A DNA stretch of 64,000 nucleotides from Flammeovirga sp. SJP92 (GTDB taxonomy: Bacteria; Bacteroidota; Bacteroidia; Cytophagales; Flammeovirgaceae). How positions within the stretch are numbered: position 1 is the first letter of the stretch; each line of letters begins with the position of its first letter. The position numbers were made by a program, and so were the translations under genes. The stretch covers positions 1 to 64,000 of the forward strand of contig NZ_LQAQ01000119.1 in the NCBI RefSeq assembly GCF_001583495.1, in the 5' to 3' direction. Below are positions 1 through 43,515 of this stretch, one piece after another. Below the pieces are notes generated by a model. That model was not told where the DNA came from and ran no database searches. It worked only from the letters and a program-made list of their open reading frames with translations.

Positions 1-650
1 GTTTCTAAATATTTCAAGGAATATATTTCAAAAAAATACTTAGAGAAGGTATTGGAGCTGGTTAATAAGCCTATTTCTCTTTCTATCAATCAGAAATTAA
101 ATGATCTACAAGGCATCATCGTTGTTGTTTCATTTAATAAAGTGATCTTCTATTGGCTTAAAACTACTGATTATCCAGTTGGGAAACTGGACTACTTTCC
201 CATTGTGGAGTACAAATATAATCATGTTCGTCAGGATTTTATTGATTTGATTGAGGAAAGTAATGTTGACCTGCTGAATGACTATTTACAACGGTAATAC
301 GAAATTGATGGTGAAAAGGGAAAATATTTTAGGAGTCGTCCTGGTTGCTTATTCTTTTTTATCAAGAAAATAGAATGGTTTTGGATAATGGCACAGCATC
401 CTACTCTTTTTGAAGAGGCAAAGAAATACGAAAAGATGGCTATTCTCGGATACAAGGAGTAAGCCATGAACAATTATCAAAACCAGAACATCTTAAGCGA
501 ATGAAGAGACGTTTTGAAAATCTTCAAATAAAAACAAGGTAGCAAGGTGAAATTTTAGGAGTAACGAAATCAACCAACACCTCTGATCCTAATTGGCTTG
601 ATAAGCTACTTGATGCAGAAGGTGATGGCTGTGCAAGTTGTTTTATTTAA
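1..650 (+). pseudogene. Broken PAPS-reductase-like gene (3' part, continues off the left edge)
   Basis: The reading frame is open from base 1 and stops at TAA 295-297. It then continues in the same frame with a stretch resembling the C-terminal half of phosphoadenosine-phosphosulfate-reductase-like proteins found in DNA-modification islands (RSRPGCLFFF, then KKIEWFW, HPTLFEEAKKYEK). A one-base loss in the A-run at 431-434 moves the frame; after it comes DGYSRIQGVSHEQLSKPEHL, then a TAG at 540-542, then an in-frame tail ending GDGCASCFI at TAA 648-650. Three lesions in 650 bases make an inactive gene the simplest reading. The family call is by eye from the R-S-x-x-G-C, I-E-W and HP-LFEEAKKYEK patterns. 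The first cysteine motif is degenerate (GCLFFF rather than a CxxC-like GCxxC). It runs tail to tail into the kinase gene, overlapping by a few bases. Confidence 0.5.
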
Positions 651-2656: not shown

Positions 2657-2667
2657 ATCTTTATTAT

Positions 2668-2906
2668 TTAATTTTCTACTTCTCGTAATACCTTTACAAA
2701 ACAATCGTATTCATCGAAGAATGAAGGATTATCATTCACTTGTGAATTGATAAAATCAACAATGAATTTCTCTCAACAATTTCGTAAAATGCTCATTGGT
2801 AATTTTCTTAGCTTTGGTTTTTACCATAATTTTCTAACAAATCAATAAGTTTTGCATTCTTAAAAGCTTTATTTTTCTTCCTCAAAAGTTTATCAAATAT
2901 TCCCAT
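2668..2906 (-). pseudogene. Decayed small gene upstream of the DUF262 gene
   Basis: An ATG at 2906 opens MGIFDKLLRKKNKAFKNAKL and runs about 35 codons to a stop. In other frames further down, the same strand reads INSQVNDNPSFFDEYDCFVK and ends with a stop at 2668-2670, just before the DUF262 start. The two pieces look like the head and tail of one small protein split by frameshifts. No family was recognised. Position and orientation suggest it was the first gene of the DUF262-kinase operon. Confidence 0.35.
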
Positions 2907-5468: not shown

Positions 5469-5494
5469 TTTTGACAATACTGGTCTTAGCTACT

Positions 5495-7367: not shown

Positions 7368-7505
7368 ACTACAAGACAATACATTTTAAGGCAATAAAAG
7401 CCCAGGATAAACACAAAACATACTTTGCAAAAGAGCTAGTTGAATACGGCTAGGTCCACGCTAACATTTCAACATTGATTACAGTTACTACCTAATACAT
7501 TGAAT

Positions 7506-9832: not shown

Positions 9833-11191
9833 ATGAAGATCAGACAGCTCTTTTTTTTAACAGTAGCGACATTGCTATTGGCATCCTGTCAAAAAGAAGA
9901 CAGTACTATGTACGTGGGTGCACCAAAAGACCTCCGCTATATCGGCATTGGAGAGTACTTTTGTGGTGAACCATTTACTACAGATCAGCCGTCAGTTTTT
10001 TCCGGTGGAGAAGAAGTGAGATTCTCTCTTATTGATGTGAAATCTGACGATTACAAAGGTGAAAATTTAATTGAAAACTTTAGAATTCATAGCGGAACGG
10101 GAATTATTACTATTAGAGATTTTAACGACCTCACTGTTGGTCGCTACACAGTAGATGTAGAAGTAAAAAACAGTATGGGAAGCACGACTTTCACAGATGT
10201 TCTTGATTTTACAGCAGATCAATCGATCCCTCAAGACATCATTTACATGCCCAACATTTATTCATTCTATGGAGATGATTTGGAGGTAGCTACAAGCCGT
10301 CCGAATGTAAAAGGCGGTGGCCCTTACGAATTTACACTTTCTAACTTTTCGGATGTCTTTGCGATTGATGCGGAGATTGGTAAAGTAAAATTACAACAAG
10401 CGTATCCTATTGGAGAGGATGATATTGAAGTGTTTGCATTGGACATTAATGTTGAAAATGCGTTAGGTTCTTTATCTAAAAGAACGGCGGTGATTATTGA
10501 GGTAATCGGTAAAAATGTAGGCCGTTTATTCTACAATGCTATTTCTTTCTTAGGTTCTCCCACTTCTTACGGTTTACAAAATGCAATCAATACCAACACT
10601 TATGGTGTAGTAGAAAAGGAAATTGATGGCGAAATGTATTCCACTGAACTAGAAGAGGGGAATAACGGCCCCAATTACACAGGTGGTTTATGGAGAAGAG
10701 CATGGTCAGGTGTTGCTTTTGATTTTGAAAACGAAGAAGGTTTTGTTTCAGAGAAAATTGTAAAAGCGTACTGGTCATGGAATCAGGAGTCAAGAGCTGA
10801 TTTAGTTTCTGACGTAATTGATTTGACTACGGTCAATGAGGAAGCTTATGTAGACGTAACAGGATTCTGGAGATATACAGGCGGTGCTCAAAATGTCAAC
10901 CAACATTTGGGAGTAATGGTTTGTAAAGCTTCTGATTATAACGAAGAGGCACCAGAACAATCCAACTGGACTTTAATTGAAAATGATATCTCTGAGCATT
11001 TGATGATGTATTCAACGGCGATCATCAATGAAAAACAATTAAAGGCAGAAGGAAATCATCAAGTCGCTATTCCATCTGAATTTTTAGGTGAGGAAATCAG
11101 AGTGGCGTTAAGAGCCGATTTCTTCAACCCTGGGGTAGGTGCTTTAGCAAGACGATTTTATATCTACCAATTACAAGTAAGAGCAAAATAA
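9833..11191 (+). CDS. Surface glycan-binding lipoprotein with cadherin-like domains, PUL 1
   Basis: A 452-residue lipoprotein with signal and lipobox LLLASC (Cys about residue 19). Two tandem cadherin/Ig-like repeats follow, each built around a 'G-x-I-x-I ... G-x-Y-x-V-x-V ... N-x-x-G' pattern (for example TVGRYTVDVEVKNSMGSTTF). The C-terminal half is beta-rich and aromatic (GGLWRRAWSGVAFDFENEEG, WSWNQE) and may bind the glycan. It precedes SusC by 26 bases and resembles the second lipoprotein after SusD in layout. The likely role is an outer-membrane surface glycan-binding protein of the SusE/F kind. No catalytic motif was seen. Confidence 0.75.
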   Translation: MKIRQLFFLTVATLLLASCQKEDSTMYVGAPKDLRYIGIGEYFCGEPFTTDQPSVFSGGEEVRFSLIDVKSDDYKGENLIENFRIHSGTGIITIRDFNDLTVGRYTVDVEVKNSMGSTTFTDVLDFTADQSIPQDIIYMPNIYSFYGDDLEVATSRPNVKGGGPYEFTLSNFSDVFAIDAEIGKVKLQQAYPIGEDDIEVFALDINVENALGSLSKRTAVIIEVIGKNVGRLFYNAISFLGSPTSYGLQNAINTNTYGVVEKEIDGEMYSTELEEGNNGPNYTGGLWRRAWSGVAFDFENEEGFVSEKIVKAYWSWNQESRADLVSDVIDLTTVNEEAYVDVTGFWRYTGGAQNVNQHLGVMVCKASDYNEEAPEQSNWTLIENDISEHLMMYSTAIINEKQLKAEGNHQVAIPSEFLGEEIRVALRADFFNPGVGALARRFYIYQLQVRAK

Positions 11192-11217: not shown

Positions 11218-14200
11218 ATGAAAGACTTAACTAAAATCAAACTGTCCTTGCTACTGATGGGCTGTATATTCTTATACGCTCCATTGGCTTATGCTCAAGG
11301 AAATTATATAAAAATAAAAGGTACGGTTACAGGAGATGATGAAGAATCAATTCCTGGTGTAAGTATCAGAATTAAAGGCACACACAACGGTACTGCAACA
11401 GACTTTGAAGGTAACTACTCTTTGAGAGTAAAACCTGATGCTCGATTATTGGTTTCTTATGTGGGTTATGAAGCACAAGAAATTCCAGTAAATGGCCGTA
11501 AAATTATTGATATCCGATTGGTTGCTGAAATCGAACAACTAGACGAGCTCGTTGTTGTTGGTTATGGTAAGCAAGACGCGAAAGAGGTATCAGGCTCTAT
11601 CCAATCTATGGTGATGGGTGATGAAGTGAACTCAATGCCTGCCGCTTCTTTTGATCAGATGTTACAAGGTCGTATGGCGGGTGTACAGGTTTCAGCTGGT
11701 GAAGGTGGACCTGGTCAAGCCATGAACTTTGAAATTCGTGGTGCCAATACAATTACAGGTAGCTCGGCTCCATTATATGTAGTGGATGGTTTCCCATTAG
11801 AAGACCCTTCATTGTTTACATTAGACCCTGCTGATATTGATAGAATTGACGTTTTAAAAGACGCATCTGCAACAGCTATCTACGGTTCAAGAGGTTCGAA
11901 TGGTGTAATCTTGATTACTACAAAAGCAGGTATGAAAGGTAAGCCAGTTATTACTTTTAACACGAAAGTTGGTGTTTCTCAAATTCCTCAGAATAGAAGA
12001 ATGGAAACATTGAACGCTCAAGAATATGTGCAGTTACAGCATGACCTTGGAGGTGGTGACCCATGGGGTGAAGTAGGAAACTACACAGATGCGGATATGA
12101 CGAACTGGCAAGACGAGATTTTCACTACCGCACCTTTCCAAAACTACAATGTATCGATGAGAGGTGGTTCTGACCTTTCTAAATTCTTCGGTTCAGTAGG
12201 TTATATCAACCAAGCAGGTACATTGATGAACACTGGTTTTGAGCGTATCAACGGTCGTTTTAAAGTAGATCAGAAATTAGGTAAGAGAGTGGATATGAGT
12301 TTGAACGTAAACTACGCTCATACAGAACATACAGGGCAGAAGACTTCTACAGCAAGTGTATCGGCGATTAAATCAGCCATCATGTTTAGACCAATGACGC
12401 CAAAGAACGGTGATTTGGATGATGATGATGAATTAAGTGCAGGTTTCTATCCTCCAACTCAGACACTAGAAAATACAGACCGTTCGGAGATCTCAGACGT
12501 AATGCAAGCCAATATTAACTTTGATGTTGATATCGCAAAAGGTTTGAAATTCCGTTCGCAGTTAGGTTACCAAATCAACTATACGCAGGTGAAAACGTTC
12601 TTCAGAGAAGGAACTAACCAAGCGGATAGAGGTAGTGATGGTATCAACGGTCATGTCTCACAGATTAGAGCACAAAACTATATCAACGAGAATACATTAT
12701 CGTATGACTGGTCGAAAAACGGTCATAAGATCAATGCACTGACAGGTATCACATTCCAAAGCAGTAACAGATACAGATTCCAAGCTACAGCAATTCAATT
12801 CCCATTGGATGATCTCGGATGGGGGAACATCGGTTTAGGTAATGTTGCCAAAATGCCATCTTCGGCACAAACAGGACAAAACTTAATGTCAGGTTTAGGG
12901 CGTATCAACTATGCTTACAAAGGAAAATATATCCTTACAGCTTCAGTAAGAGCGGATGGTTCATCAAGATTTAAAGAAGGGAACCGCTTTGGTATTTTCC
13001 CATCAGTTTCAGCGGCATGGAGAGCAGGTGACGAAGACTTTATTCAAAACTGGAACGTATTTTCAGACCTTAAATTTAAAGCAGGTTTAGGTACTACTGG
13101 TAACAACAGAGTAGGTGATTTTGACTTTATTCCTACCATGGCTGTGGGTCCAGGATACTACTTCGGAGGACATTACCACTCAGCATTCTACCAAGAAAAA
13201 TTAGCCAATACAGACTTGAAGTGGGAAACTACTCAACAGTTCAACGTCGGTGCTGAAATGGGCTTCTTGAATAACCGTTTATTAGTGGATGTTGAATACT
13301 ACTACAACTTAACGGACAACCTTCTTTTCGATGCAAAAGTGGCTCCATCAACAGGTTATACGCAAGTGAAACAAAACATTGGTGCGGTAGTCAACAGAGG
13401 TGTAGAATTGAGTATCAATACGGTGAACGTACAGACGAAAAACTTCAAGTGGACGTCGAACTTCAACATTTCATTTAATGACAACGAAATCAAAAACTTA
13501 TCATATGGTGAGGATTTCAGATTATATGATCCAAATGTAGGCGGTATGTTTGCGGGTGAATTGTACTACGGTCTTTTTGTAGGAATGCCAATGACACAGA
13601 TGTACGGTTACCGTTATGACGGTATCTATCAGATGGATGATTTTGTTAGAAATTCAAATGGTGAGTTAGTATTGAAAGACGGGGTTCCTGGTTTCGATTC
13701 ACAAACAGGACAAGTAAGACCGGGTATGCCGAAATACAGAGACGTGAACGGTGATGGTGTAATTGATGAAAATGACAAAGAAATCATCGGTAACCCTAAC
13801 CCAAGACATTTCGGTGGTTTTACCAACAACTTCACCTATAAAAACTGGGACTTAAGTATCCTTTTAACTTGGTCAGTAGGCCAAGATGTATTCAATGGCA
13901 ACATGGCTGATTTTGGTGTAGTAGGTAACCAAAGAGGTAGAAACTACTTGAAAGATGTGGGTGACCGTTGGACATTGAATAACCCTGTCGGTGATGGCGT
14001 TTGGGGTGCTCCAGGTCCAGGACAAGAATATACTTATCAGCAAGTGTACGGTGGTCATCAAATGAGTGATTACTTTATCGAAGATGCTTCTTTCTTAAGA
14101 ATCAAGAACATCACATTGGGTTATACATTTGAACCGCAAAAACTGAAAAAGCTGAGAATCGATAAAATGAGAGTATACGCTTCAGTAGACAACCTTTGGG

Positions 14201-14328
14201 TATTTACAAACTACTCAGGTTATGATCCTGAAGTATCTGTCAGAAATCAAGCGATGTACAGAGGTATTGATTACTCATCATACCCAGCATCACAATCATT
14301 TATTGCAGGTTTCCAAGTTTCTTTCTAA
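11218..14328 (+). CDS. SusC/RagA family TonB-linked outer-membrane transporter, PUL 1
   Basis: A 1036-residue beta-barrel transporter that imports oligosaccharides with SusD using TonB energy. The signal peptide ends AYAQ. A carboxypeptidase-regulatory-like domain follows (IKGTVTGDDEESIPGVSIRI, GTATDFEGNYSL), then the TonB-box region ELVVVGYGKQ and the plug (LQGRMAGVQVSAGEGGPG, PLYVVDGFP, IDVLKDASATAIYGSRG, GVILITTK). The barrel ends with the typical ...SQSFIAGFQVSF, with terminal Phe for BAM recognition. The SusD gene begins 11 bases downstream, which together define the PUL. Length is usual for the family. Confidence 0.97.
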   Translation: MKDLTKIKLSLLLMGCIFLYAPLAYAQGNYIKIKGTVTGDDEESIPGVSIRIKGTHNGTATDFEGNYSLRVKPDARLLVSYVGYEAQEIPVNGRKIIDIRLVAEIEQLDELVVVGYGKQDAKEVSGSIQSMVMGDEVNSMPAASFDQMLQGRMAGVQVSAGEGGPGQAMNFEIRGANTITGSSAPLYVVDGFPLEDPSLFTLDPADIDRIDVLKDASATAIYGSRGSNGVILITTKAGMKGKPVITFNTKVGVSQIPQNRRMETLNAQEYVQLQHDLGGGDPWGEVGNYTDADMTNWQDEIFTTAPFQNYNVSMRGGSDLSKFFGSVGYINQAGTLMNTGFERINGRFKVDQKLGKRVDMSLNVNYAHTEHTGQKTSTASVSAIKSAIMFRPMTPKNGDLDDDDELSAGFYPPTQTLENTDRSEISDVMQANINFDVDIAKGLKFRSQLGYQINYTQVKTFFREGTNQADRGSDGINGHVSQIRAQNYINENTLSYDWSKNGHKINALTGITFQSSNRYRFQATAIQFPLDDLGWGNIGLGNVAKMPSSAQTGQNLMSGLGRINYAYKGKYILTASVRADGSSRFKEGNRFGIFPSVSAAWRAGDEDFIQNWNVFSDLKFKAGLGTTGNNRVGDFDFIPTMAVGPGYYFGGHYHSAFYQEKLANTDLKWETTQQFNVGAEMGFLNNRLLVDVEYYYNLTDNLLFDAKVAPSTGYTQVKQNIGAVVNRGVELSINTVNVQTKNFKWTSNFNISFNDNEIKNLSYGEDFRLYDPNVGGMFAGELYYGLFVGMPMTQMYGYRYDGIYQMDDFVRNSNGELVLKDGVPGFDSQTGQVRPGMPKYRDVNGDGVIDENDKEIIGNPNPRHFGGFTNNFTYKNWDLSILLTWSVGQDVFNGNMADFGVVGNQRGRNYLKDVGDRWTLNNPVGDGVWGAPGPGQEYTYQQVYGGHQMSDYFIEDASFLRIKNITLGYTFEPQKLKKLRIDKMRVYASVDNLWVFTNYSGYDPEVSVRNQAMYRGIDYSSYPASQSFIAGFQVSF

Positions 14329-14339
14329 TAGCTACAACC

Positions 14340-15956
14340 ATGAAAAATAATTTATTAATACTTATAGCCTTGATCATTTCGTCTTGTTCTTTCCTGGAGA
14401 TGGAACCAAAAGATGAAATCAGTAGAGATGATTATTATAAAAACGACAAACAAGTTTACCTCGCACTATCAGGTGCTTATGGATCATTAAGAGATATCTA
14501 CGATCAAGATTTCTCGATCTGGTTTAATGTGGGAACGGATGAAATGTTGTACAGAAGATCTTTATTCAATCACGAATTGACAAAGATGTCTTACAATGAA
14601 TCAGACGTTGACTTGAACCGTATCTGGACAAGTAGTTACAGAGGTGTAAACAGAGTCAATGACTTGATTCAGAACTTAAGTGAAAGAGATACGATTGAGA
14701 ATTTATCAAGAGCCGATCATGATTTAATGATTGGTGAAGGTCTGACGTTAAGAGCGTTATACTACTTCAACTTGGTAAGAGTATGGGAGCACATTCCATT
14801 AAGATTGGATCACTTTACGGATATTGATGGCAACTTGGATATGTTGAATTTACCCAACACGCCAGCTCCAAAAGTATACAATCAGATCATTGAAGATTTG
14901 GACAAAGCCATTACACTTTTAAATGACCGTCCAAAGGAATATGGAAGAGTAAGTAAGCAGATTGCACACGGTTTGGCCGCGCGTGTTTACTTGACAATGG
15001 CAGGAGCAAGAATCCAAGGTGGAGATATTGGTCGTGATGTTTGTCTTCAAAAAGTAATTGAGCATACCAATGCAGTAACAGAATTTGGTTACCACTCACT
15101 TTTACCCGATTATAAAGAGGTTTTTATGAACCAAATCCAAGGTATTCGTAGAGATGTAGAAGTAATGTGGGAAGTTGACTTTACAGTAACTGAAGGTCGT
15201 GATTTAGGAGGTAGAATTGGTAACTTCAACGGTGTTCAAATTCAGCTGACTACAGGTACAATGCCATTCAGTATTGGTCACGCCTACATCACGCCATCAA
15301 TGCATAAAAGTACTTACGGAGCAGATGATACACGTTATGAGTGGAACTGCGCTAATTTCAGTTTCAATTACAGAAACGATGAGTTTGTAGCAACGAATAT
15401 TGGTAACGAATTGCGTTGGTTCCCAGGTAAATGGAGAAGATTAGACAGAGGTAGAGACCATAACGGTGAGCTAGACGGAACGGTAGAAACATTAGAAAAC
15501 GGTGTAATTATCAAAGATAGAACGTCTATCAATTTCCCAATCTTACGTTTCAGTGATATCCTATTGATGCGTGCAGAAGCAAGTTACTTATTGTACGGTG
15601 CAGGTGGACAAGCTACAGCAGATATTGAAGCAGTTCGTGCACGTGCCAATGCAGGTTCATTGAGCCAAGGTTTGAGTGATGCCAACCAAGACTTTATGAA
15701 GTTGATTCAAGATGAGCGTAAAAGAGAGTTGTGCTTTGAAGGACATAGACGTTTTGACCTAGTGCGTTGGGGAATTTTAGAAGAGACAATGCAGGAGGTA
15801 AGTAGAAACGTGAGATCCAATAAAGATTTCCGTCCAGACAACGAGGAGCACTTGGCTTTCCCTGGTGAAAGATGTGAAGAAAAGCACGTAGTTTTCCCTA
15901 TTCCAACGGAAGAATTACAATTGAATTACAACATCAAACAACACCCTCTTTGGTAA
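14340..15956 (+). CDS. SusD/RagB family lipoprotein, PUL 1
   Basis: A 538-residue partner lid of the SusC above. The lipoprotein signal has the lipobox IISSC at about residue 16, followed by FLEMEPKDEISRDDYY, the usual SusD N-terminus. TPR-like helices are visible (LTLRALYYFNLVRVW, AARVYLTMAG), as is the conserved C-terminal region FPILRFSDILLMRAEASYLL, ERKRELCFEGHRRFDLVRWG and HVVFPIPTEELQLN. It sits on the cell surface and binds the glycan for import. Confidence 0.97.
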   Translation: MKNNLLILIALIISSCSFLEMEPKDEISRDDYYKNDKQVYLALSGAYGSLRDIYDQDFSIWFNVGTDEMLYRRSLFNHELTKMSYNESDVDLNRIWTSSYRGVNRVNDLIQNLSERDTIENLSRADHDLMIGEGLTLRALYYFNLVRVWEHIPLRLDHFTDIDGNLDMLNLPNTPAPKVYNQIIEDLDKAITLLNDRPKEYGRVSKQIAHGLAARVYLTMAGARIQGGDIGRDVCLQKVIEHTNAVTEFGYHSLLPDYKEVFMNQIQGIRRDVEVMWEVDFTVTEGRDLGGRIGNFNGVQIQLTTGTMPFSIGHAYITPSMHKSTYGADDTRYEWNCANFSFNYRNDEFVATNIGNELRWFPGKWRRLDRGRDHNGELDGTVETLENGVIIKDRTSINFPILRFSDILLMRAEASYLLYGAGGQATADIEAVRARANAGSLSQGLSDANQDFMKLIQDERKRELCFEGHRRFDLVRWGILEETMQEVSRNVRSNKDFRPDNEEHLAFPGERCEEKHVVFPIPTEELQLNYNIKQHPLW

Positions 15957-15974: not shown

Positions 15975-17315
15975 ATGAAAAAATTAATATATATCGTTTT
16001 CGCATTCGTCATCACAAGTTGCCTTACCAACCATGAAGTGGACTTTGATGTGCCGAATGTCGCTCCAGAAAACCTATTGTATCACAGAAATGACCTCACT
16101 GTAGCACACAACAGAAGTGTACAAGGTGATGCTCCAGAAGTGATTTCTCAAGGAACACCCACTTTTGATATCGAAAGTGTGGCATGGTTTGAGGATTCTG
16201 TAAGAGTCGATGTTTCAGATGAGTTGAATCCTTTTACCATTGATATTGAAACAGGTCAATTATCATTAGAACCTACAGATGAAACGGCTTTAGGGAAATA
16301 CCATGTAAATGTCATGGCTTCTAATGAATATGGAACATCTACTTTTGAAGATGCTTTCAGAGTAATGTTAGTAGACAAACGCCCTGAACTTTCTTTAGAG
16401 ACAAAGAAAGATTCCATCATTATTTTTATGGATGAAGCGGGTACTCCTCTTACTACTCAATTGGAAAGTATCAGTGTGATGGCTGAAGGCGTATTTATGT
16501 CAGATATCAATGTCACAACTTCACCAGCATTGCCTTCTGCAACAACAATTACGATTGACGCAAATGGTCGATTCAATATTAGAGGAAATCTAGAGGAGTT
16601 TGATTATGAAATCACAATCAGTGCTGAAAACGAATACGGTGCATCTGAAAATAATCCTTCATTTACATTATATACCAAAACGCTGAAAATTGTAGAGCGT
16701 GATATGTTTGTAATGAATATTGAAGCTGGTTTAAAGCCAGATGATCAAGATGAATTCATTTTTGCAGGCATGGATTTCATGAAGATTGAAGGTCCAGAAT
16801 TGCCAAGTGGTCAGACATGGTGGAATATCGCTATTGATAGAAACAACCACCCTGATGCAGACCGTAAAGAGAACTTCATTACAAGAAATTATGCTAGAAA
16901 TTACGATGGAGTTTCTACAGCAAAACACATGATTGTATCGCCTTCATTATCAACAGATGGTATGGAAGTAATGACCGTTGACATCGGAGCCATGTTCAAT
17001 AACATCACCGGCGTAGGCGGAGAGCAAAGAATTGAAGCAAGAGTAGTGAGCGAAAGTGCTTACCAAGAAGCTTTAACTTCAGGCAATATCAACAACGTTT
17101 ACGAAAACTGGACATTGGCATTCAACTCTGCTGATTTCCAAACGGATGAAAGTAAGTTGTTTATCCATAATTCATCAGAACACAGTAACCTTTTCGAAGG
17201 AGAAGATCTTAGAGTAGTAGTAGTACTAGTTCACGGATTGACTTCAGCAGTCAACAGAGGTTATATGGGTATTGATGAATTAGAGATCAAAGGAAGATTT
17301 TTAGAAATCGATTAG
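15975..17315 (+). CDS. Second cadherin-like surface lipoprotein, PUL 1
   Basis: A 446-residue lipoprotein: lipobox VITSC (Cys about residue 16), then tandem cadherin/Ig-like repeats (TALGKYHVNVMASNEYGTSTF, FDYEITISAENEYGASEN), then an aromatic C-terminal beta domain (GQTWWNIAIDRNNHP onward). It follows SusD by 18 bases and shares architecture with the lipoprotein before SusC, so the two are probably paralogous glycan-binding proteins. A terminator follows. No enzyme motif was seen. Confidence 0.72.
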   Translation: MKKLIYIVFAFVITSCLTNHEVDFDVPNVAPENLLYHRNDLTVAHNRSVQGDAPEVISQGTPTFDIESVAWFEDSVRVDVSDELNPFTIDIETGQLSLEPTDETALGKYHVNVMASNEYGTSTFEDAFRVMLVDKRPELSLETKKDSIIIFMDEAGTPLTTQLESISVMAEGVFMSDINVTTSPALPSATTITIDANGRFNIRGNLEEFDYEITISAENEYGASENNPSFTLYTKTLKIVERDMFVMNIEAGLKPDDQDEFIFAGMDFMKIEGPELPSGQTWWNIAIDRNNHPDADRKENFITRNYARNYDGVSTAKHMIVSPSLSTDGMEVMTVDIGAMFNNITGVGGEQRIEARVVSESAYQEALTSGNINNVYENWTLAFNSADFQTDESKLFIHNSSEHSNLFEGEDLRVVVVLVHGLTSAVNRGYMGIDELEIKGRFLEID

Positions 17316-17448: not shown

Positions 17449-17546
17449 CGCCATTGGGCTGACTACCGTTATCGTTGGGTAGTAGAACTTTGAAATTTTG
17501 TACAAAAAAAAGCCACCTCTTCACTCTCACAATAGATACAATAATT

Positions 17547-18947
17547 ATGAAAAAGTCGATTTTACTAAGTTTTATATTACTGAGCATATTACAATTTGCA
17601 GAAGCTAAAACACCACCTAATGTTGTCTTGATTTTTGTTGACGATATGGGTTGGGGAGATGTGGGTTATCACGGAGTAAATACAATCCATACACCTCAAA
17701 TTGATCAGCTGGCCAACGAAGGAGTTTACTTCTCACAAGGTTATGTCACTGCTTCAATTTGTGGACCTTCAAGAGCTGGATTGATCACTGGAAAATACCA
17801 ACAGCGTTTTGGGTGTTTCGGTAATAGTAAACACGGAATACCTAACGAAGAAAAACTACTTTTCCATTATTTAAAAGAACAAGGTTATCAAACCGCTTCC
17901 ATTGGGAAGTGGCACCTTGGGGAAGGAGAAGGAAGATTAATGCCTAACGAACGTGGAGTAGATTACTTCTATGGTTTTTTAGGAGGATCACATGATTATA
18001 CAAAATCAGGAAAAGATGAAAATGTAAAAAGAAGTTTGCTGAAGCCCATTTATGAAAATGGAGAAATACAACCTCCAATTCAAAATGACAATGGGTATTT
18101 AACGGACTTATTTACAGAAAAAGCGATATCTTTTATCGATAAAAATAAAGAAAATCCTTTCTGCCTTTATTTAGCTTACAATGCAGTGCATCACCCCTGG
18201 CAAGTGCCTCAAAAGTATGTAGATGCTTTGGATCACCTAGAAGTAGGAGAGGAAAGAAAACATTTTGCGGGAATGGTCTATGCTTTGGATGTAGGGATTG
18301 GTCAGATTCGAGAAGCACTGAAAGAAAATGGCATCGATGATAATACCATCATATTTTTCATTAGTGATAATGGAACTCCTGCAGGTCAAGGTTTTAAAGA
18401 GCCAAGACGTAAGAAAAGAGGAGAAACAACTATGTCTTCACCGGGACCTTTCAATGGTTTTAAAGGTTCAACTTACGAAGGAGGTATCCGAATTCCTTTT
18501 ATCGCCCATTATCCAAAACATTTTCCAGAAAATAAACATTCTGAAGTTCCTGTGACCTCTTTGGATGTATTGCCTACCATCTTAAATCAGATTGGTAAAG
18601 GTTTGGGGAGTGATGATTTAGAAGGAAAAGACCTTTTGGAATTAATTGATGGAGAAGAAGAAAGACCATTATTTTGGGCTAGAGATGGAGACATTGCGGT
18701 ACGATATCAAGATTGGAAATTATCCATCAATAATAAACAAGGTAGTGGAGATGTAGAGTTGTATGATTTGAAAAATGATCCGGGTGAATGGAAGGATATT
18801 GCATCCAATAATCCAGAAAAAGTGAAGCAGTTATTGCACCTTTTTCAAGAGTGGGATCAAAAGAATACAAAAGTCACAAACCATAGTGGTTTAACTCCAA
18901 AATACAGAGCAAAAATCGAAAAGTATTTGGAAGAGTTAGGAAGATAA
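17547..18947 (+). CDS. Exported S1 sulfatase
   Basis: A 466-residue sulfatase. The signal peptide ends FAEA; the metal site is IFVDDMGWGDVGYHG (D32/D33), and the maturation motif CGPSR at residues 72-76 is followed by AGLITGKYQQRFG. The second metal site reads FFISDNGTPAGQ, and FKGSTYEGGIRIPFIAHYP carries the basic substrate-end residue. The YQQRFG extension is shared with the sulfatases at 21092 and 55102, so these three probably belong to one or closely related subfamilies. The ATG at 17547 is used; the longer ORF upstream lacks a signal. It lies between the PUL 1 terminator and the 7TM receptor gene. Confidence 0.93.
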   Translation: MKKSILLSFILLSILQFAEAKTPPNVVLIFVDDMGWGDVGYHGVNTIHTPQIDQLANEGVYFSQGYVTASICGPSRAGLITGKYQQRFGCFGNSKHGIPNEEKLLFHYLKEQGYQTASIGKWHLGEGEGRLMPNERGVDYFYGFLGGSHDYTKSGKDENVKRSLLKPIYENGEIQPPIQNDNGYLTDLFTEKAISFIDKNKENPFCLYLAYNAVHHPWQVPQKYVDALDHLEVGEERKHFAGMVYALDVGIGQIREALKENGIDDNTIIFFISDNGTPAGQGFKEPRRKKRGETTMSSPGPFNGFKGSTYEGGIRIPFIAHYPKHFPENKHSEVPVTSLDVLPTILNQIGKGLGSDDLEGKDLLELIDGEEERPLFWARDGDIAVRYQDWKLSINNKQGSGDVELYDLKNDPGEWKDIASNNPEKVKQLLHLFQEWDQKNTKVTNHSGLTPKYRAKIEKYLEELGR

Positions 18948-19137: not shown

Positions 19138-21051
19138 ATGAGAATCACGATAAAAAGGCATATTTTATTACTACTGTGCACATTATCAATTCTAACAACA
19201 TACGCAACTTCTAACAATGTAACGCACCTTACTGTACGTTTGGATGATTCATTGGACGAGCAAATTTTGAACCTGGAGAAAATTCCTTTTTGGGAAGATT
19301 CCTCAAGGTTGATGACGTATGAAGAAATGATATTGAAGGCACCGAGTTTTAATACCATTGGGAGATATTCGAAAGAATCTTACAATGTTAATTCTGCCTA
19401 TTGGTTAAAATTATATATTGATATAGAAGAACATAACAGCAAGTCGTGGACACTTGAATTGTATGATCAATCTATTGATGAAATAGTATTCTTTTTACCA
19501 CAAAAAAACGGTGTAATTAGAAAGGAGTTTATGGGCGATAGTTATCTTTTTGATCAGAGAATTTACTTCCACAAAAACTTTATCATTCCATTAAATAACG
19601 ATATAGACTATACTAAACCAATCTATATTAGTATCAAATCCAATCATAAAGTGGATTTACACGTCAATATCCGTAGTACAGAGCGTTTGATTAAACATGC
19701 TACTTTAGAATACCTTTGGTTTGGTATCTATTACGGGGCCATCATCATTATGTCATTTTATAACTTTATGCTTTGGTTGAGTATCAAAGAATCCAAGTAT
19801 TTAGTTTATATCTTACATATTCTCACGGTAGGTGTTTTTAATGCCTCAACGGATGGAACAGGTTTTCAATTTATTTGGAGCTATAACCCTAGTATCAATA
19901 ATTATGTGATCACATTATTGAGTTACGCGGCGGCGCTATCCTTGATCTTTTTTATCAAAGAAATGATGAAACAAGAGGCGAAAACCGTAAAGTATTATCA
20001 CTATATGAATTACTTGGTGGGTATTGTGACCTCTATTTTGATTATCGATTTATTTCATTTCAATTCTCAGTTTAGTGATGTCATGCTGATTGTAACTATT
20101 GTGGGATTGACGTTAATTGTTGCAAAACTAAGATTTGAGAATAAGAAAGTTTCCCCTTTCTATATTTATGGATTGGCGGCCATTTTAATTGGAGCTATTT
20201 TTCAGATGTTGAAAATCTTTGGAGTTATTCCATTGACACCGATTACACAGTATTTATTACGTTTCTCTATTTTCTTAGAAATGCTTCTGTTCTCTTATGC
20301 GCTTTATGATTCACTTCGACTTATAAAAGAAGAACAGCAGCGATCGAAAGATGAGGTGATTGAGCATCAGAAAAAGACAGAAGCGATGCAACTGAAGGTC
20401 ATTGAAGAACAAGAAAAAACGGTTTCCTTGAAAAATAAAGTCAATGAAGAATTAGAAGAGAAAGTAAGGGAAAGGACGATTTCTTTAATGCAAAGTGAAG
20501 AAAAACTCAAGGAGGCATATCGTAAATTGGAAGAAAAATCGGAGCGTTTAAATCTCATTAATAGAACCCTTGATGTCAATAATAGTAAGTTGAAAGAAGG
20601 GATTAAGAAGGAGAGGGAAAAGCGATTTATTCATAAAATCATCAGCTTGGAAGAGTTTATGGAATTGTTCCCAGATCAGGTGTCATGCAAAAGGTATTTG
20701 GACAAGCAAAAATGGGAGAAAGGTTTTACTTGTAAACAGTGCCATAATCATAAGCAATGTAATGACGATAACACTTCGGGAAGTGCACAGTTTTCAAGAC
20801 GTTGTTCTAAATGTGGTTATGTAGAATCAGTGACCAGCAATACGGTCTTCCATCATGTGAAGTTTGATTTGACAAAGGCTTTTTACCTGTCGTATATCTT
20901 CCGTTATCACGAAAATGAATTCACCAATATTGAGCTAGGAATACAGCTTGATATGTCAAGAAATACAATTGCGAAATTTAAGACTAAAGTGAAGTCTGCT
21001 AACGAAAATAAATTACTACTACCAACTTTTGAGTTGTTTGAAATGGCTTAG
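19138..21051 (+). CDS. 7TMR-DISM membrane receptor fused to IS1595-type transposase zinc-ribbon/HTH domain
   Basis: A 637-residue protein from ATG 19138. In order: signal peptide (about 1-24); extracellular sensor domain of the 7TMR-DISM-E2 kind (SYNVNSAYWLKLYIDI, SWTLELYDQSIDEIVFFLP, GDSYLFDQRIYFHKNFIIP); seven hydrophobic helices (about 190-395, from YGAIIIMSFYNFMLWL); a long charged coiled coil (about 397-500). The end (about 510-637) reads as the N-terminal part of IS1595/ISXO2 transposases: EEFMELFPDQVSCKRYLDKQ, WEKGFTCKQC, RRCSKCGYVESV, TVFHHVKFDLTKAFYLSYIF, then an HTH-like IELGIQLDMSRNTIAKFKTK. Zinc ligands would be C532, C535, C556 and C559. The DDE catalytic domain is absent. The probable role is a membrane-tethered transcription regulator. 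It ends 40 bases before a sulfatase gene, so it is probably co-transcribed with it. Confidence 0.85.
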   Translation: MRITIKRHILLLLCTLSILTTYATSNNVTHLTVRLDDSLDEQILNLEKIPFWEDSSRLMTYEEMILKAPSFNTIGRYSKESYNVNSAYWLKLYIDIEEHNSKSWTLELYDQSIDEIVFFLPQKNGVIRKEFMGDSYLFDQRIYFHKNFIIPLNNDIDYTKPIYISIKSNHKVDLHVNIRSTERLIKHATLEYLWFGIYYGAIIIMSFYNFMLWLSIKESKYLVYILHILTVGVFNASTDGTGFQFIWSYNPSINNYVITLLSYAAALSLIFFIKEMMKQEAKTVKYYHYMNYLVGIVTSILIIDLFHFNSQFSDVMLIVTIVGLTLIVAKLRFENKKVSPFYIYGLAAILIGAIFQMLKIFGVIPLTPITQYLLRFSIFLEMLLFSYALYDSLRLIKEEQQRSKDEVIEHQKKTEAMQLKVIEEQEKTVSLKNKVNEELEEKVRERTISLMQSEEKLKEAYRKLEEKSERLNLINRTLDVNNSKLKEGIKKEREKRFIHKIISLEEFMELFPDQVSCKRYLDKQKWEKGFTCKQCHNHKQCNDDNTSGSAQFSRRCSKCGYVESVTSNTVFHHVKFDLTKAFYLSYIFRYHENEFTNIELGIQLDMSRNTIAKFKTKVKSANENKLLLPTFELFEMA

Positions 21052-21091
21052 AGGATGTTTGAAACATGCTCTTAAAAACCAATTGAATGAT

Positions 21092-23110
21092 ATGAAAATT
21101 ACAAGACTACTAAGTACTATAGTACTGCTTCTTTGGAGCGGTTACTTATGGGCTCAAACACCCAATTTTATCGTCATCATAGCAGATGACTTAGGTTATT
21201 CGGACGTAGGTTATCATGGTCTACGTACGGATATTCCTACTCCTAACATTGATGCATTAGCAAATAAAGGAGTGCAGTTTTCTGAAGGATATGTTACAGC
21301 CCCAGTTTGTGCTCCATCAAGAGCAGGGTTGTTGACGGGTGTCTACCAACAGCGTTTTGGTTTTAAAGATAATCCAGGTCCCTTCCGTCCTTCTCCAGAG
21401 ATTGTACCGGGAATCAGCCATGATTATCCTACTATCGCTCAGGAATTAAAGAAAGTTGGTTACAATACAGCGGCCATTGGAAAATGGCATTTAGGAGGAC
21501 AAGAAGACAACTCATTTATTCCCACAGGTAAAGGTTTTGACTACTACTACGGTTTCCTTGGAGGAGCATCTTCGTATTATTTTGAAGATCATGCCACACA
21601 ATTTTTCTTAGAAAATGATCAGCCCATCCAAACACCAAACCGTTATTTGACATCATTGTTTGGCGACAAAGCCGTAGAATATATTTTACAGCAGGATAAG
21701 GCAAAACCCTTCTTTATGTATTGGGCGCCGAATGCTGTCCATTCTCCATTACAAGCACCTGAAGAGGTTTTAGAAAAATTCAAACATATCAAGGATCCTA
21801 AGCGTCAGAAGTTAGTAGCCATGCAATATGTGATGGACCAGAACATTGGTAGAATTGTTGATGCGTTGGAAACGAAAGGTTTGATGGACAATACAATGAT
21901 TGTTTTCATCAGTGACAACGGTGGAAAACCACATGAAAATGCGTCTTACAACTTACCATTGAACGGAGCAAAGGGATCTCTTTTTGATGGTGGAATCAGG
22001 GTGCCTTATTTCATGTATTACCCGAAAATGATCAAAGAGGGACAAAAATACGATGAGATGGTGAGTAGCCTTGATATTATGCCGACCTTCTTATCATTGG
22101 CCAATGCTAATGCAACACAAGAATTATCAGGTGTTAATTTATTGCCTTATATCTCTAAAGAAATTTCTGAAAAGCCACATGATAAATTGTATTGGAAAAA
22201 CGCCAACAAATGGGGAGTACGTGATCAGGACTGGAAACTATTTTATGATCAAGACAGTGATAAGGTAAGGTTGTTTCATTTAGCTAAAGATGCTTATGAA
22301 AAAGAAGATGTGTATGATCAATACCCTGAGCAAGTAGAGCGTTTGTTGAAAGCGTATCAAGAATGGGATTATCAAAATGCCTCTTTTTCCTGGGGATGGA
22401 ATCCTGCGGCTATCGGAAAGTATAAAACGGAGAATCAATTTACATTTGAAGAATTGATTTCTGAAAAATTAGCAAGTGAAGAATTCGCAGATGTAATGGT
22501 GATTGAAAACCCAGCTAAAACTGGAATCAATACATCAAACAAGGTTTTACATCTAAAAGTAGACCAACATCATGAGAAATATTTCTTAAGTGCCCGTCAT
22601 TCTCCTATGATGAAAAGAGGGAATAAGGTAGCACATATTAAAGTGAAAAGTAAACAGAATTTCCGTTTGAATCTGACTATGATCGATGACAAAAAAGGAA
22701 ATGTTTCTGCCTACGCTCATAAAGAATACAATGGTAATGATGAATGGCAAGATTTAGTTTTTGATTTCACTGATTGGAAAGGAATGAAGTCGAAAGGTAT
22801 CGAGCTTTCATTTGAAGGGTTGGAGAACAATGAAGATATCTATTTGGATGATATTTGGTGGAATGTTCAGAAGAAAGAAATCAAAAATAACGAAACGGTA
22901 AGGGTAGAGAATATTCAGGTTTACAAAAGTATTTTCCAGAAAGACAAACAAGTACTGGTTTGGAAACCGATTCCTAATGTAAACGCCTATACAATCTACC
23001 ATAATGAAGAGGTGATTGGTACAGCAGATCAGCATTTCCACCTATTGCCAATGGATTATCAATTGAAAGACATCAAAATAAGTACTAAGCCAAAATTATT
23101 TGATAATTAA
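21092..23110 (+). CDS. S1 sulfatase with C-terminal jelly-roll extension
   Basis: A 672-residue enzyme from ATG 21092: signal peptide ending LWAQ, metal site IIADDLGYSDVGYHG (D32/D33), maturation motif CAPSR at residues 73-77 followed by AGLLTGVYQQRFG, and FISDNGGKPHENASYN. The sulfatase core ends near residue 430. About 240 extra residues follow. The first part resembles a carbohydrate-binding jelly roll (EWQDLVFDFTDWKGMKSKGI, DIYLDDIWWNV); the last 60 look like a small fibronectin-like strand set (VLVWKPIPNVNAYTIYHNEE). The extension probably binds the glycan substrate. The gene lies directly after the receptor gene. Confidence 0.9.
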   Translation: MKITRLLSTIVLLLWSGYLWAQTPNFIVIIADDLGYSDVGYHGLRTDIPTPNIDALANKGVQFSEGYVTAPVCAPSRAGLLTGVYQQRFGFKDNPGPFRPSPEIVPGISHDYPTIAQELKKVGYNTAAIGKWHLGGQEDNSFIPTGKGFDYYYGFLGGASSYYFEDHATQFFLENDQPIQTPNRYLTSLFGDKAVEYILQQDKAKPFFMYWAPNAVHSPLQAPEEVLEKFKHIKDPKRQKLVAMQYVMDQNIGRIVDALETKGLMDNTMIVFISDNGGKPHENASYNLPLNGAKGSLFDGGIRVPYFMYYPKMIKEGQKYDEMVSSLDIMPTFLSLANANATQELSGVNLLPYISKEISEKPHDKLYWKNANKWGVRDQDWKLFYDQDSDKVRLFHLAKDAYEKEDVYDQYPEQVERLLKAYQEWDYQNASFSWGWNPAAIGKYKTENQFTFEELISEKLASEEFADVMVIENPAKTGINTSNKVLHLKVDQHHEKYFLSARHSPMMKRGNKVAHIKVKSKQNFRLNLTMIDDKKGNVSAYAHKEYNGNDEWQDLVFDFTDWKGMKSKGIELSFEGLENNEDIYLDDIWWNVQKKEIKNNETVRVENIQVYKSIFQKDKQVLVWKPIPNVNAYTIYHNEEVIGTADQHFHLLPMDYQLKDIKISTKPKLFDN

Positions 23111-23263: not shown

Positions 23264-24754
23264 ATGAAAACATTTTACAGAATTGCAATTGCATTAGTAA
23301 TTTGCATTGGTGCTAGAGTAGCACAAGGACAAACGCCGAATATCTTATTAATCACAGCGGATGATATGGATTATTATTCGTTAGGAGTCAATGGGAGTAA
23401 GGTAGAAGACATCACACCTAACTTGGATAAACTAGCTGATGAAGGCGTTCGTTTTACCAATGCACACGTAACAGTAGCCGTTTGTCAGCCTTCAAGAGGT
23501 GTAATTGGTACAGGTAGATACCCTAACAACAGTGGGATTTTAGGTTTTTATAATACAAAAGCCTCTGTTCCAACTTTAGCGGAAGAACTGAAAAATGCGA
23601 AGGGATATGAAGTGGGTATTTTAGGAAAAGTAAGCCACTCTACTCCAAAAGACAAGTACATTTGGGACTACGAGCAAGATGCAAAAGACTTAGGTAGCGG
23701 ACGTGGTACACAACTATACAGAGATCATTTCCAGAAGTTTGTACAGCAAGCAAAAGCAGGTGATGCTCCATTCTTTATGATGGCTAACTCACATGACCCT
23801 CATAGACCATTTTTTGAGGATACACCAAACTATGAGAATGGTGGAAAAAAGCGTCCTTCAAGAATTTATACTACAGATGAAATTGAAGTACCAGGATTTT
23901 TAGAAGATCTTCCTGAAGTGAGAAAAGAGTTGGCCGCTTATTACTCATCAGTAAGAAGATGTGATGATGTAGTGGGTGCATTTATGGAAGTATTGGAAGA
24001 AGAAGGCGTTGCTGATAACACTATCGTTGTTTTCCTTTCTGATAATGGAATGGCTTTCCCATTTGCAAAATCAAATGTTTATGTTCAATCAACAAGAACA
24101 CCATTTATTGTAAAATGGCCTAAAGGGTTCAAAGGTGGAAAAGTAGATGAAACACACCTTATTTCCATGGTAGACCTAATGCCTACTTTATTGGAAGCTG
24201 CAAAAATTAAAGCTCCAAAGAAATTGGATGGTAGAAGTTTCTTCCCATTATTAAAAGGGAAAAAGCAAGACGATCGAGAGTATGTATATACGCATTACAA
24301 TGAAAATATTGGTAGCAGAGCTTACACTATGAGAGCGGTGCAATCAAAAGACTACCTTTATATTTTCAACCCTTGGGCTGTTGGAGGAAGACAATATAAA
24401 ACATCTTCTATTAATGGCACATCATTTAAAGCCATGCAGGCAGCCGCTGAGGGTGATAAAGAACGTGAAGAAAGAGTGAATTTCTGTCTTTTTAGAACGG
24501 TTTTAGAATTTTATGACCTTAGTAAAGATCCTCATGCATTGAATAACCTAGCTGGAAATCCTGAATACGCTAAACAGCAAAAAGAAATGGAGGAAGAAAT
24601 GGTTAGAAGTATGCAAGCTACAAAAGATCCTATGTTGGAACTTTATAAGCAAAAGAATGATGAAGAATTCTTGATCAAGGCTACTCAAAAAATCCAAAGA
24701 GAAGCGAATATCAAAAAGAAAGAGAGAAGGGCTTTGAAAAATAATAAGCATTAG
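23264..24754 (+). CDS. Exported S1 sulfatase
   Basis: A 496-residue sulfatase with signal peptide (about 1-23), metal site LITADDMDYYSLGVNG (D33/D34), maturation motif CQPSR at residues 74-78 and VFLSDNGMAFPFAKSNVY as the second metal site, plus the histidine region ANSHDPHRPF. The general look (CQPSRG, HDPHRPF, short loops) recalls the N-sulfoglucosamine sulfohydrolase-like branch rather than the YQQRFG group, but subfamily and substrate need a SulfAtlas comparison. The lysine-rich C-terminus resembles that of the sulfatase at 3831. It is followed by a terminator, so it is the last gene of its transcript. Confidence 0.92.
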   Translation: MKTFYRIAIALVICIGARVAQGQTPNILLITADDMDYYSLGVNGSKVEDITPNLDKLADEGVRFTNAHVTVAVCQPSRGVIGTGRYPNNSGILGFYNTKASVPTLAEELKNAKGYEVGILGKVSHSTPKDKYIWDYEQDAKDLGSGRGTQLYRDHFQKFVQQAKAGDAPFFMMANSHDPHRPFFEDTPNYENGGKKRPSRIYTTDEIEVPGFLEDLPEVRKELAAYYSSVRRCDDVVGAFMEVLEEEGVADNTIVVFLSDNGMAFPFAKSNVYVQSTRTPFIVKWPKGFKGGKVDETHLISMVDLMPTLLEAAKIKAPKKLDGRSFFPLLKGKKQDDREYVYTHYNENIGSRAYTMRAVQSKDYLYIFNPWAVGGRQYKTSSINGTSFKAMQAAAEGDKEREERVNFCLFRTVLEFYDLSKDPHALNNLAGNPEYAKQQKEMEEEMVRSMQATKDPMLELYKQKNDEEFLIKATQKIQREANIKKKERRALKNNKH

Positions 24755-25775: not shown

Positions 25776-25989
25776 CGGCGGGATTAGGTATTTGTAAAAT
25801 TGATTGTTTTTATATTGATATAGATTTCTATTATGGGGTATGTCTTGTGGAGGGGACTTTCACTTCTACTTATAGAGAAATTAAAAGAAGCATAATTTTA
25901 TCACCTTTCTTTTATAGAAAATTCACCCATTCAATTATGAAGGTTTGTTATTTTTATTCATCAAATTGACTACTAAACTTCAAAACGAA

Positions 25990-27858
25990 ATGAAATATCA
26001 TTACAAAGGTCTTTTTTTAATTTTAGCTATCTGTTGGCAAACTACATTATTTGCTCAACAAAAACGCCCGAATATCGTTTGGCTCACATCTGAGGATAAT
26101 TCAGCCAATTGGTACAGGCTGTACAATCCAGAACATGGAGCACCAATGCCGAATATTGAGAAATTAGCAGAAGGTGGATTGGTTTTTAATCATGCTTACT
26201 CGAATGCTCCAGTTTGCTCAACGGCAAGAAGTACAATTATTTCAGGTGTTTATGCTCCAAAAACAGGTGTGCATTTTCACCGTCCTCAAGAGAAAGTACA
26301 CATGCCTCAAGGATTAAAAATGTTCCCAAAATACCTTAGAGAAGCGGGGTATTATACTACCAATAACAATAAACAGGATTATAACTTCACAAAGGAAGAA
26401 GTAGAAGGTGTTTGGGACGAAAGCTCTAAGAAAGCCACTTTTAGAAATAGAAAGCCCAATCAACCGTTCTTTCATGTTCAAAATTTTGCCGACACACATG
26501 AAAGCCAAATGTTTGGTCCTCTTAAATCACATGTTGAAGATATAGGAGAGCCTGATAATGTTGATTTATTTCCTTACCATCCTGATACACCCATTTTTAG
26601 ACAGAAGTATGCACAGTATATTTCATTAAATCACCATGTTGACAAGAGAATTGGTAAGATTGTAAAACAATTGGAAGAAGATGGTTTGTTGGATGATACT
26701 TTCATTTTCCATTATGGAGACCATGGCGGAGTGCTTCCGGGTGGAAAAGGTTATGCTCACAATGACGGTTTGCAAGTGGCCATGGTAGTTTATGTGCCTG
26801 AAAATTGGAAGCACCTAGCACCTGCTTCTAAAGGCTCTAGAGTGGATGGCTTTGTAGAATTTGTTGATTTGTCTGCCACCGTATTGCACCTTGCAGGAAT
26901 TCCAGTACCAGAGCAAATAGATGGAAAACCATTTTTAGGTGAAGGTGTGACTTTAAAAGAATTGGATAAAAGAGATGAGGCATTTGGTTATGCGGACCGT
27001 TTTGATGAGAAATATGATTTGGTACGTTTCCTCCGAAAAGGGAAATACAGTTATTGGAGAAGCTATCAGCCGTTTAATTTTGATGGTTTACATAATTTCT
27101 ACCGTTACAAACAACCGGCTTTTAGAGAGTGGAGAGATTTAGTGAGAAAAGGAGAGTTGGAAGAAGTACAGGAGGCTTTTTATCGATCACGTTTGCCAGA
27201 GCAATTGTATAATTTAGAAAATGACCCTCATGAAATCAATAACTTGGCTAATGACCCAGCTTACAAGAAGGTGTTATTAGAAATGCGAAAAATAATGCAA
27301 GACCGTGTAAAAGGAATGCCTGATTTATCATTTTATCCAGAACCTACATTTTTAAAACTAAGTAAAGGAGATGGAGTAGCTTTTGGCAAAGAAAATAAAA
27401 GTCAAATCAATAAATTAATCAACCTTGCAGACTTACAACTTTTACCTTTCAAAAAAGCGAAGAAAGGAATAGAAAAAGCATTGCATTCTGATGATGCTAT
27501 GGAACGTTATTGGGCTTTGATCAATTGCAGTGCGTATGGAAAAGAAGCATCTCTTTTTTATGAGACTGCTAAGGAATTAGCCTCTTCTGATCCCGACCTG
27601 CTAGTACGAACACGTGCTGCTGAATTTCTAGGACTTACAGAAACAGTTGACCCAAAACCTTTAATACTAGATATTTTGGATCATTGTAAAGATCCTATCG
27701 AGACCAATTTTGTCTTAAATACAGTTGTATTATTAATGGATGCCAAAGGTATGGAGATTGATTTGGAAACGATAGAAAATGCAAAGTGGTCTAAGTTTGA
27801 AGGTCTAGTGCCTAGAAGAATTGAATATTTGAAAGAATTGGCACAGAAGAATATGTAA
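25990..27858 (+). CDS. Atypical S1 sulfatase with C-terminal HEAT-like region
   Basis: A 622-residue protein from ATG 25990, which gives signal peptide ...TTLFAQ. The N-terminal metal site is WLTSEDNSANWY, with Glu35-Asp36 where most sulfatases have Asp-Asp. The maturation motif is CSTAR at residues 76-80 instead of C-x-P-S-R. The second metal site is FHYGDHGGVLPGGKGY. These features resemble the N-sulfoglucosamine sulfohydrolase-like branch. The last 130 residues (ALHSDDAMERYWALINCSAYG, DLLVRTRAAEFLGL) look like HEAT-type helical repeats. CxxxR without the central Pro-Ser can still be matured by some systems, so it may be active. A terminator follows. Confidence 0.85.
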   Translation: MKYHYKGLFLILAICWQTTLFAQQKRPNIVWLTSEDNSANWYRLYNPEHGAPMPNIEKLAEGGLVFNHAYSNAPVCSTARSTIISGVYAPKTGVHFHRPQEKVHMPQGLKMFPKYLREAGYYTTNNNKQDYNFTKEEVEGVWDESSKKATFRNRKPNQPFFHVQNFADTHESQMFGPLKSHVEDIGEPDNVDLFPYHPDTPIFRQKYAQYISLNHHVDKRIGKIVKQLEEDGLLDDTFIFHYGDHGGVLPGGKGYAHNDGLQVAMVVYVPENWKHLAPASKGSRVDGFVEFVDLSATVLHLAGIPVPEQIDGKPFLGEGVTLKELDKRDEAFGYADRFDEKYDLVRFLRKGKYSYWRSYQPFNFDGLHNFYRYKQPAFREWRDLVRKGELEEVQEAFYRSRLPEQLYNLENDPHEINNLANDPAYKKVLLEMRKIMQDRVKGMPDLSFYPEPTFLKLSKGDGVAFGKENKSQINKLINLADLQLLPFKKAKKGIEKALHSDDAMERYWALINCSAYGKEASLFYETAKELASSDPDLLVRTRAAEFLGLTETVDPKPLILDILDHCKDPIETNFVLNTVVLLMDAKGMEIDLETIENAKWSKFEGLVPRRIEYLKELAQKNM

Positions 27859-42454: not shown

Positions 42455-42464
42455 AAAAAAGACG

Positions 42465-43487: not shown

Positions 43488-43493
43488 TCGTAG

Positions 43494-43515
43494 GGGCAGA
43501 CCTGCGTGTCTGCCC
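43494..43515 (+). repeat. Post-stop hairpin GGGCAGAC-ctgcgt-GTCTGCCC
   Basis: Perfect 8-base arms and a 6-base loop, starting 7 bases after the dehydrogenase stop. It has two relatives in the same gene cluster, at 47041 and 49284. No T-tract follows. Confidence 0.8.

Follow-up and report, generated by a model that had tools for sequence, protein, structure and literature searches.

A gene of Flammeovirga sp. SJP92, located at 19138..21051 on the plus strand of the window (the whole 64,000-nucleotide stretch of DNA analysed here), encodes a 637-residue 7TMR-DISM receptor with an IS1595-type zinc ribbon/HTH output, as assigned from its ORF, Pfam and three full-length paralogs. From its sequence, the protein is probably a membrane-bound, one-component regulator that controls transcription of the adjacent polysaccharide-utilisation locus (PUL), carrying a DNA-binding domain (DBD) captured from an IS1595 transposase. 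The parts of this explanation that rest on computed evidence are the domain order, the homology of the DBD, the lack of a DDE domain, the conservation of the fusion, its clustering within transposases and its linkage to SusC/SusD and glycosidase genes. The fused proteins constitute a real, conserved family of probable regulators, which is new, as far as the literature searched goes, in its DBD and in its recurrent linkage to PULs; the general working of membrane-bound one-component regulators is already known.

The receptor, its DNA-binding domain and its locus

The reading frame is intact from the ATG at 19138 to the stop at 21051, and a longer version starts with TTG at 18970. All of its features lie on the plus strand. 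An N-terminal hydrophobic segment, located by a hydropathy scan and probably a signal peptide (19138..19212), is followed by a 7TMR-DISMED2 extracellular (periplasmic) sensor domain at residues 50–178 (19285..19671; PF07696, 73.9 bits against a Pfam cut-off of 22, E 1.5e-20) and by a 7TMR-DISM_7TM membrane domain at residues 191–391 (19708..20310; PF07695, 124 bits against a cut-off of 29, E 1e-35), which was also recovered in the genome scan; in addition to the N-terminal stretch, six more hydropathy peaks rise over the chosen threshold. The membrane domain leads into a charged, heptad-biased linker of 111 residues with one Pro/Gly, which contains EELEEKVRERT and is predicted from the heptad count and alignment to form a coiled coil (20311..20637). 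The linker is followed by the zinc ribbon at residues 513–561 (20674..20820) with C532, C535, C556 and C559, and by a segment (20821..21012) which in hhalign and other alignments corresponds to the IS1595 region between the zinc ribbon and the DDE domain, and which we take, on inspection by eye, to be HTH-like. The four zinc cysteines are kept, as had been noted from the sequence, and the motifs FPD..C..YL..KW..GF, S.T..T.F and KAFY are also present. The predicted lack of a DDE domain was borne out by the Pfam scan, which found no PF12762 in the window protein; nor were histidine kinase, receiver, AraC or sigma domains found by Pfam in this protein or in L250 and L251, two relatives described below.

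Taken alone, the window protein leaves the identity of its DBD doubtful, because PF12760 scores 15.6 bits with the whole protein, 17.1 bits with the C-terminus alone and 17.7 bits in the genome scan, under the cut-off of 25.4. This doubt is addressed by the paralogs and by a profile comparison. The genome contains four fused genes (the window gene, C18, C90 and C116), the three paralogs being 47, 49 and 25% identical to the window protein over the whole protein and 65, 65 and 41% identical in the DBD. In the genome scan C18 (46.5 bits) and C90 (27.7 bits) score above the PF12760 cut-off and C116 (22.6 bits) below it, so that in the HMM check suggested with the original prediction two of the four genes pass the cut-off and two, the window gene among them, do not; as proteins, C18 passes with 41.5 bits and the fused protein L079 stays below the cut-off with 21.2 bits. 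When the profile of seven fused DBDs was compared with that of nine IS1595-type transposases by hhalign, 123 columns running through both the zinc ribbon and the HTH were aligned with 100% probability and E 2e-42. A significant IS1595 match thus exists at the profile level, though the window protein alone falls below the Pfam cut-off, and together with the Pfam domains it confirms the original description of a 7TMR-DISM sensor with an IS1595 zinc ribbon/HTH end. PF12762 follows the DBD in L270, L171 and L134, the three of the nine profiled transposases that were scanned in Pfam. Cys517, 532, 535, 556 and 559 do not vary among the 62 fused DBDs examined, and 0–42 residues follow the DBD match in all 62 proteins; these are the distinct DBDs from the 63 loci of samples 1–3 of the survey below, with an ORF of at least 400 residues and a match of at least 90 residues. 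A search of solved structures gave 16 matches to E 10, the best at E 0.017 and none informative.

The receptor gene belongs to one strand-run (plus strand) that also comprises PF10091, GH3, SGBP-like, SusC and SusD genes and several sulfatases. Pfam identifies, in order, a sulfatase (3831..5468), a PF10091 glycosidase (5471..7126), which is presumably GH144, a GH3 glycosidase (7500..9758), an SGBP_BT4661-like surface glycan-binding protein (9833..11191), a SusC-type TonB-dependent transporter (11218..14328) and SusD (14340..15956); an SGBP-like protein (15975..17315) scores below the Pfam cut-off and belongs to a cluster that is so placed in four more loci. The two sulfatase genes noted in its strand-run are real by Pfam and flank the receptor gene, one directly upstream (17475..18947) and one directly downstream (21029..23110, with a likely start at ATG 21092 from the ATG list), and two more sulfatases follow (23264..24754 and 25945..27858). 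The place of the gene in this locus is common to its ortholog in L064 and, in part, to L098.

Elsewhere in the window, 31218–32903 (minus strand) encodes a TPR protein (Pfam) with, by eye, a TM segment, a coiled coil and a C-terminal LuxR-like HTH, which probably regulates a second PUL; the likeness in domain order originally drawn between this protein and the receptor is a fair one. Two porphyranase-type enzymes and a gene set (GH2, aldehyde dehydrogenase, enolase-like, aldose epimerase and RhaT-like) lie at 28779–30728 (minus), 50784–53036 (plus) and 39872–49279 (plus), and we take them to be a porphyran/agar-type locus adjoining the PUL of the receptor. At 643–2704 (minus) a protein kinase gene overlaps a GmrSD-N-domain gene, perhaps as a defence pair.

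In the proposed working, the periplasmic DISMED2 domain and the 7TM bundle would sense a glycan fragment or a related cue, and the signal would pass down a parallel coiled coil in a dimer. The zinc ribbon/HTH dimer could then bind, from the membrane, operators near SusC/SusD and enzyme promoters, and this binding would change transcription, most likely by activation. Alternatively, the DBD may act only after proteolytic release, as a soluble regulator that is cut off its 7TM anchor on signal. Other regulators are known to be freed from the membrane by release, the linker between anchor and DBD is long, and L097 and L078 each have a peptidase M3 gene two ORFs upstream of the fused one. However, no protease was recognised by Pfam beside the window gene, where most flanking ORFs are without an assignment, and linker residues 392–504 are 96.5–100% identical in three ortholog pairs and 70.8% identical in a fourth, which makes the linker more like a signal-transmitting coil. 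In the three Flammeovirga ortholog pairs, dN/dS from a simple count method is 0–0.025 for the DBD, 0–0.025 for the coil and 0.04–0.084 for the sensor and 7TM parts; in the fourth, more distant pair dS is saturated. Release is considered unlikely, and regulation from the membrane is the reading that we prefer.

Linkage to SusC/SusD and searches for an operator

Of the 83 loci examined, 28 have SusC as the next gene (9/26, 9/20, 0/17 and 10/20 in samples 1–4). Sample 1 consisted of chosen fused loci, with close Flammeovirga copies left out and L064 kept, and samples 2–4 were hand-picked, non-randomly, among the matches listed, mainly on long contigs; genes were labelled as SusC, SusD or glycosidase by HMMs from our own clusters (E 1e-5 in samples 1–3, and 1e-8 for SusC in sample 4), of which just the representatives were checked in Pfam. 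SusC and SusD are present in the stretch in 19 loci of sample 1 and in nine loci of sample 2, always as the next gene in the latter, and no SusC/SusD pair is nearby in seven and 11 loci, respectively. In sample 4, SusC is separated from the fused gene by one ORF in three further loci and was not found in seven within the approximately 4.6 kb read downstream. In sample 3, which represents family f92, no SusC/SusD pair was found nearby in any of the 17 loci; in 11 of them the stretch contains an ORF labelled as a glycosidase or sulfatase. In family f15, three genomes are without a SusD match, yet their fused gene lies beside GH81 and GH16 genes. With one genome per genus, SusC is the next gene in five of eight, for which the rough chance is about 1.7e-10, given SusD counts per genome, an assumed 900 genes per Mb and genera treated as independent; genus g3 is represented here by G378, in which SusC is next, and in the two other g3 genomes that were examined a single gene intervenes. 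In the genome of the window, with 42 SusD places listed, two of the four fused receptors lie less than 10 kb from SusD, whereas none of the six SpoIIE-output 7TMR-DISM receptors does so; the paralogs C90 and C18 are away from any of these places.

This linkage supports the part of the original prediction that sees in the protein a putative membrane-bound regulator. The specification of sulfated-glycan use proved too narrow, since fused genes elsewhere are often linked to GH3, GH16, GH30, GH81 or GH144-type enzymes with SusC/SusD and since family f92 is without the pair; it suits this window, not the whole fused family.

The same DBD also occurs behind a second type of sensor. In L250 (1068 residues) and L251 (997 residues) Reg_prop and Y_Y_Y domains precede the DBD, for which PF12760 is above the cut-off (26.6 and 32.1 bits, respectively); SusC and SusD follow L250 but not L251. 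This second arrangement suggests that the DBD may be a reusable output module. Free-standing DBD-only proteins of about 148 residues are also found, at L080:5630–6073 and L092:7911–8351, in two MAGs that agree in the neighbouring genes: a pair of thioredoxin genes flanks the DBD gene on one side, and a formiminotransferase-cyclodeaminase gene and an amidohydrolase gene, the latter presumably an imidazolonepropionase, flank it on the other (all by Pfam in L080). These proteins are possible soluble regulators. Further short ORFs that consist of the DBD and have no DDE domain are found at L074:7989–8420 and in L220.

TIRs of related elements were found, and a matrix of 11 TIR ends, picked by eye, scored 18 REG-SusC intergenic regions no better than 20 control SusC promoters (p 0.93), the control SusC genes being those at high-scoring SusD places; an operator derived from the IS ends was accordingly dropped. 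The strongest shared motif of the REG-SusC regions (17 regions) has the look of a LacI-type site, and for this reason it cannot be assigned to the fused regulator; LacI-like sites lie upstream of SusC in REG-SusC regions such as L109, L112 and L256. The second motif, TTWAAGYG, which was discovered de novo after masking of the LacI-like one, occurs in 9/18 regions of the discovery set against 1/20 controls (leave-one-out matrix p 0.002). Its enrichment did not hold in ten new regions (2/10 against 1/20 controls, p 0.25), and it was likewise dropped as the operator of the regulator. AAGCGTAT is found in 6/18 discovery regions and 0/10 validation regions. Of the LacI-like sites, WCGWTT occurs in 15/18 REG-SusC regions against 9/20 controls, and AAWCGWTT in 1/10 new regions against 4/20 controls. 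With the TIR matrix null, the top motif LacI-like and the second motif unreplicated, no operator is claimed.

The outcome of these searches would fit a different role, in which the zinc ribbon/HTH has lost specific DNA binding and serves protein contacts, for example with RNA polymerase or a partner regulator, and the zinc-ribbon half of the DBD indeed matches general zinc ribbons weakly as well. However, the HTH half has been retained along with the ribbon, purifying selection is strong and a second type of sensor carries the DBD too, and we consider such a role quite unlikely.

Origin and spread of the fused domain

The best-supported origin of the fused DBDs, as judged from their sequences, would be one capture out of an IS1595-type transposase. 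In a tree of 96 DBDs (119 columns, midpoint root, many forks unresolved), computed without ten short or truncated loci and without rows of fewer than 96 residues, a branch (74/83) separates the 34 fused DBDs from all others, and together with two short DBD-only proteins they form a clade (98/90) nested in a larger one that includes transposases. A second tree, of 60 7TMR-fused and two propeller-fused DBDs, was made by a quick method with a chosen subset of transposases and a midpoint root; all of the fused DBDs group with three short forms (88), three changes are needed for the 7TMR label and two f92 rows are basal. With one exception, the searches were made within the phylum. In genome G572, two element copies with inverted-repeat ends are 99.5% identical over 1006 bases. 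The domestication of a transposase DBD that was originally proposed is supported by the homology of the DBD, the missing DDE domain and the clustering of the fused DBDs within the transposase clade. In the opposite direction, IS1595 transposases may have acquired their DBD from such a host regulator, a flow that the midpoint rooting of both trees and their many open forks would accommodate. It is nevertheless very improbable: transposases share the clade of the fused DBDs, the second large clade of the 96-DBD tree consists of transposases and short forms only, and relatives with intact DDE residues, such as L171 and L270, exist and adjoin the fused clade.

One genome, G350 (L161–L170 and L172–L181), contains about ten diverged full-length IS1595-type proteins, with approximately 71–87% DNA identity where aligned; the nine that were translated are all without the DDE residues of their relatives. 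The neighbours of these copies vary, so that they may represent another domestication, one in which the catalytic domain is dead. A 25-base inverted repeat around L170 could be old IS ends.

Orthologs of the window gene in three Flammeovirga genomes are 94–97% identical. Within the genus, full-length matches at E 1e-60 were found in 7/9 genomes and matches to the DBD profile in 9/9. Fused relatives occur in Flammeovirga aprica, F. pacifica, two more Flammeovirga strains, a Cyclobacteriaceae MAG and Mucilaginibacter arboris. In the order, 105/291 genomes have a DBD match at E 1e-20, and by a hand count about 135 of the best 150 matches listed sit in frames of 590–720 residues. All 19 genomes of family f92 have a DBD match at E 1e-30, with up to 12 matches each, some of them in frames that are transposase-length or truncated. 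In the class, a DBD match at E 1e-8 was found in 92/395 genomes, 16 of which have a fused-length frame of at least 600 residues, the remaining frames among the matches listed being mostly of transposase length or shorter; in the phylum, 28/395 genomes have a match, transposases counted in. The fusion, which was to be sought in other genomes, therefore recurs in four genes here and in many genomes. An assembly error or a recent insertion of a transposon fragment, for which just the general oddity of the fusion speaks, is ruled out to near certainty by the orthologs, the three paralogs and the many recurrences elsewhere.

One fused gene, L245 of genome G572, is broken into two, a 7TMR part of 191 residues and another part of 475; each of its counterparts, L277, L281 and L284, is a single ORF.

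There is a slightly better than even chance that the fused proteins make up a lineage-wide class of regulators new to science, in which one IS1595 DBD was captured, lost its catalysis, multiplied to as many as 12 DBD matches per genome, had its sensors swapped between 7TMR-DISM and propeller and became a standard PUL switch. A transposase-derived, membrane-bound class present in up to about one third of the sampled genomes of the order (105/291 with DBD matches) would easily escape annotation.

Comparison with known systems

No description of a 7TMR-DISM protein with a zinc ribbon or transposase DBD was found in the open-access literature searched, and the original statement that no example had been described has held for the fused family in this literature. 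The passages on 7TMR-DISM in PMC1592074 and PMC8092284 contain no transposase DBD; for the domestication of IS1595 elements the closest among the papers listed was PMC8101967, on eukaryotic Merlin elements. The literature on Flammeovirga PUL regulators led to a Vibrio XylR-type regulator, as outlined in PMC12125979.

The window protein shares its periplasmic and 7TM modules (PF07696 and PF07695) with the 7TMR-DISM receptors; six others in this genome end in SpoIIE, whereas its own output is the IS1595 zinc ribbon/HTH. With the IS1595-family transposases (PF12760 and PF12762), the fused DBDs share the zinc ribbon and HTH over the 123 aligned columns; however, these transposases carry the PF12762 DDE domain (L270, L171 and L134), whereas the fused proteins extend at most 42 residues past the DBD.

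Reg_prop/Y_Y_Y is the usual sensor of hybrid two-component systems (HTCS), and L250 and L251 share these domains with them. The regulators of glycan use are described, in the parts of PMC10766802 that concern them, chiefly as HTCS, ECF-sigma/anti-sigma pairs and catabolite repression, and the first two likewise couple glycan sensing at the membrane to the control of carbohydrate-use genes. Unlike these systems, the fused proteins attach the DBD directly, and Pfam finds in the window protein, L250 and L251 neither a kinase nor a receiver, AraC or sigma domain.

In its working, the nearest known system is ChiS, a membrane-embedded chitin sensor which, like the window protein, bears its own DBD. 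A figure legend of PMC8092284 names 7TMR-DISM as one of the domains that accompany the ChiS DBD; this DBD is set apart as a cryptic HTH, for which no transposase origin is given there, whereas IS1595 homology accounts for the DBD of the window protein.

Fusions of host proteins with transposases have been studied in vertebrates. If the present reading is true, the fused family would be the bacterial counterpart of host–transposase fusion transcription factors, and would offer a genetically testable capture of a transposase DBD in bacteria, with several paralogs and two sensor types to compare. In the eukaryotic fusion proteins, a host domain is joined to a transposase DBD, as it is here; the window protein differs in being bacterial and in having its DBD joined to a transmembrane sensor.
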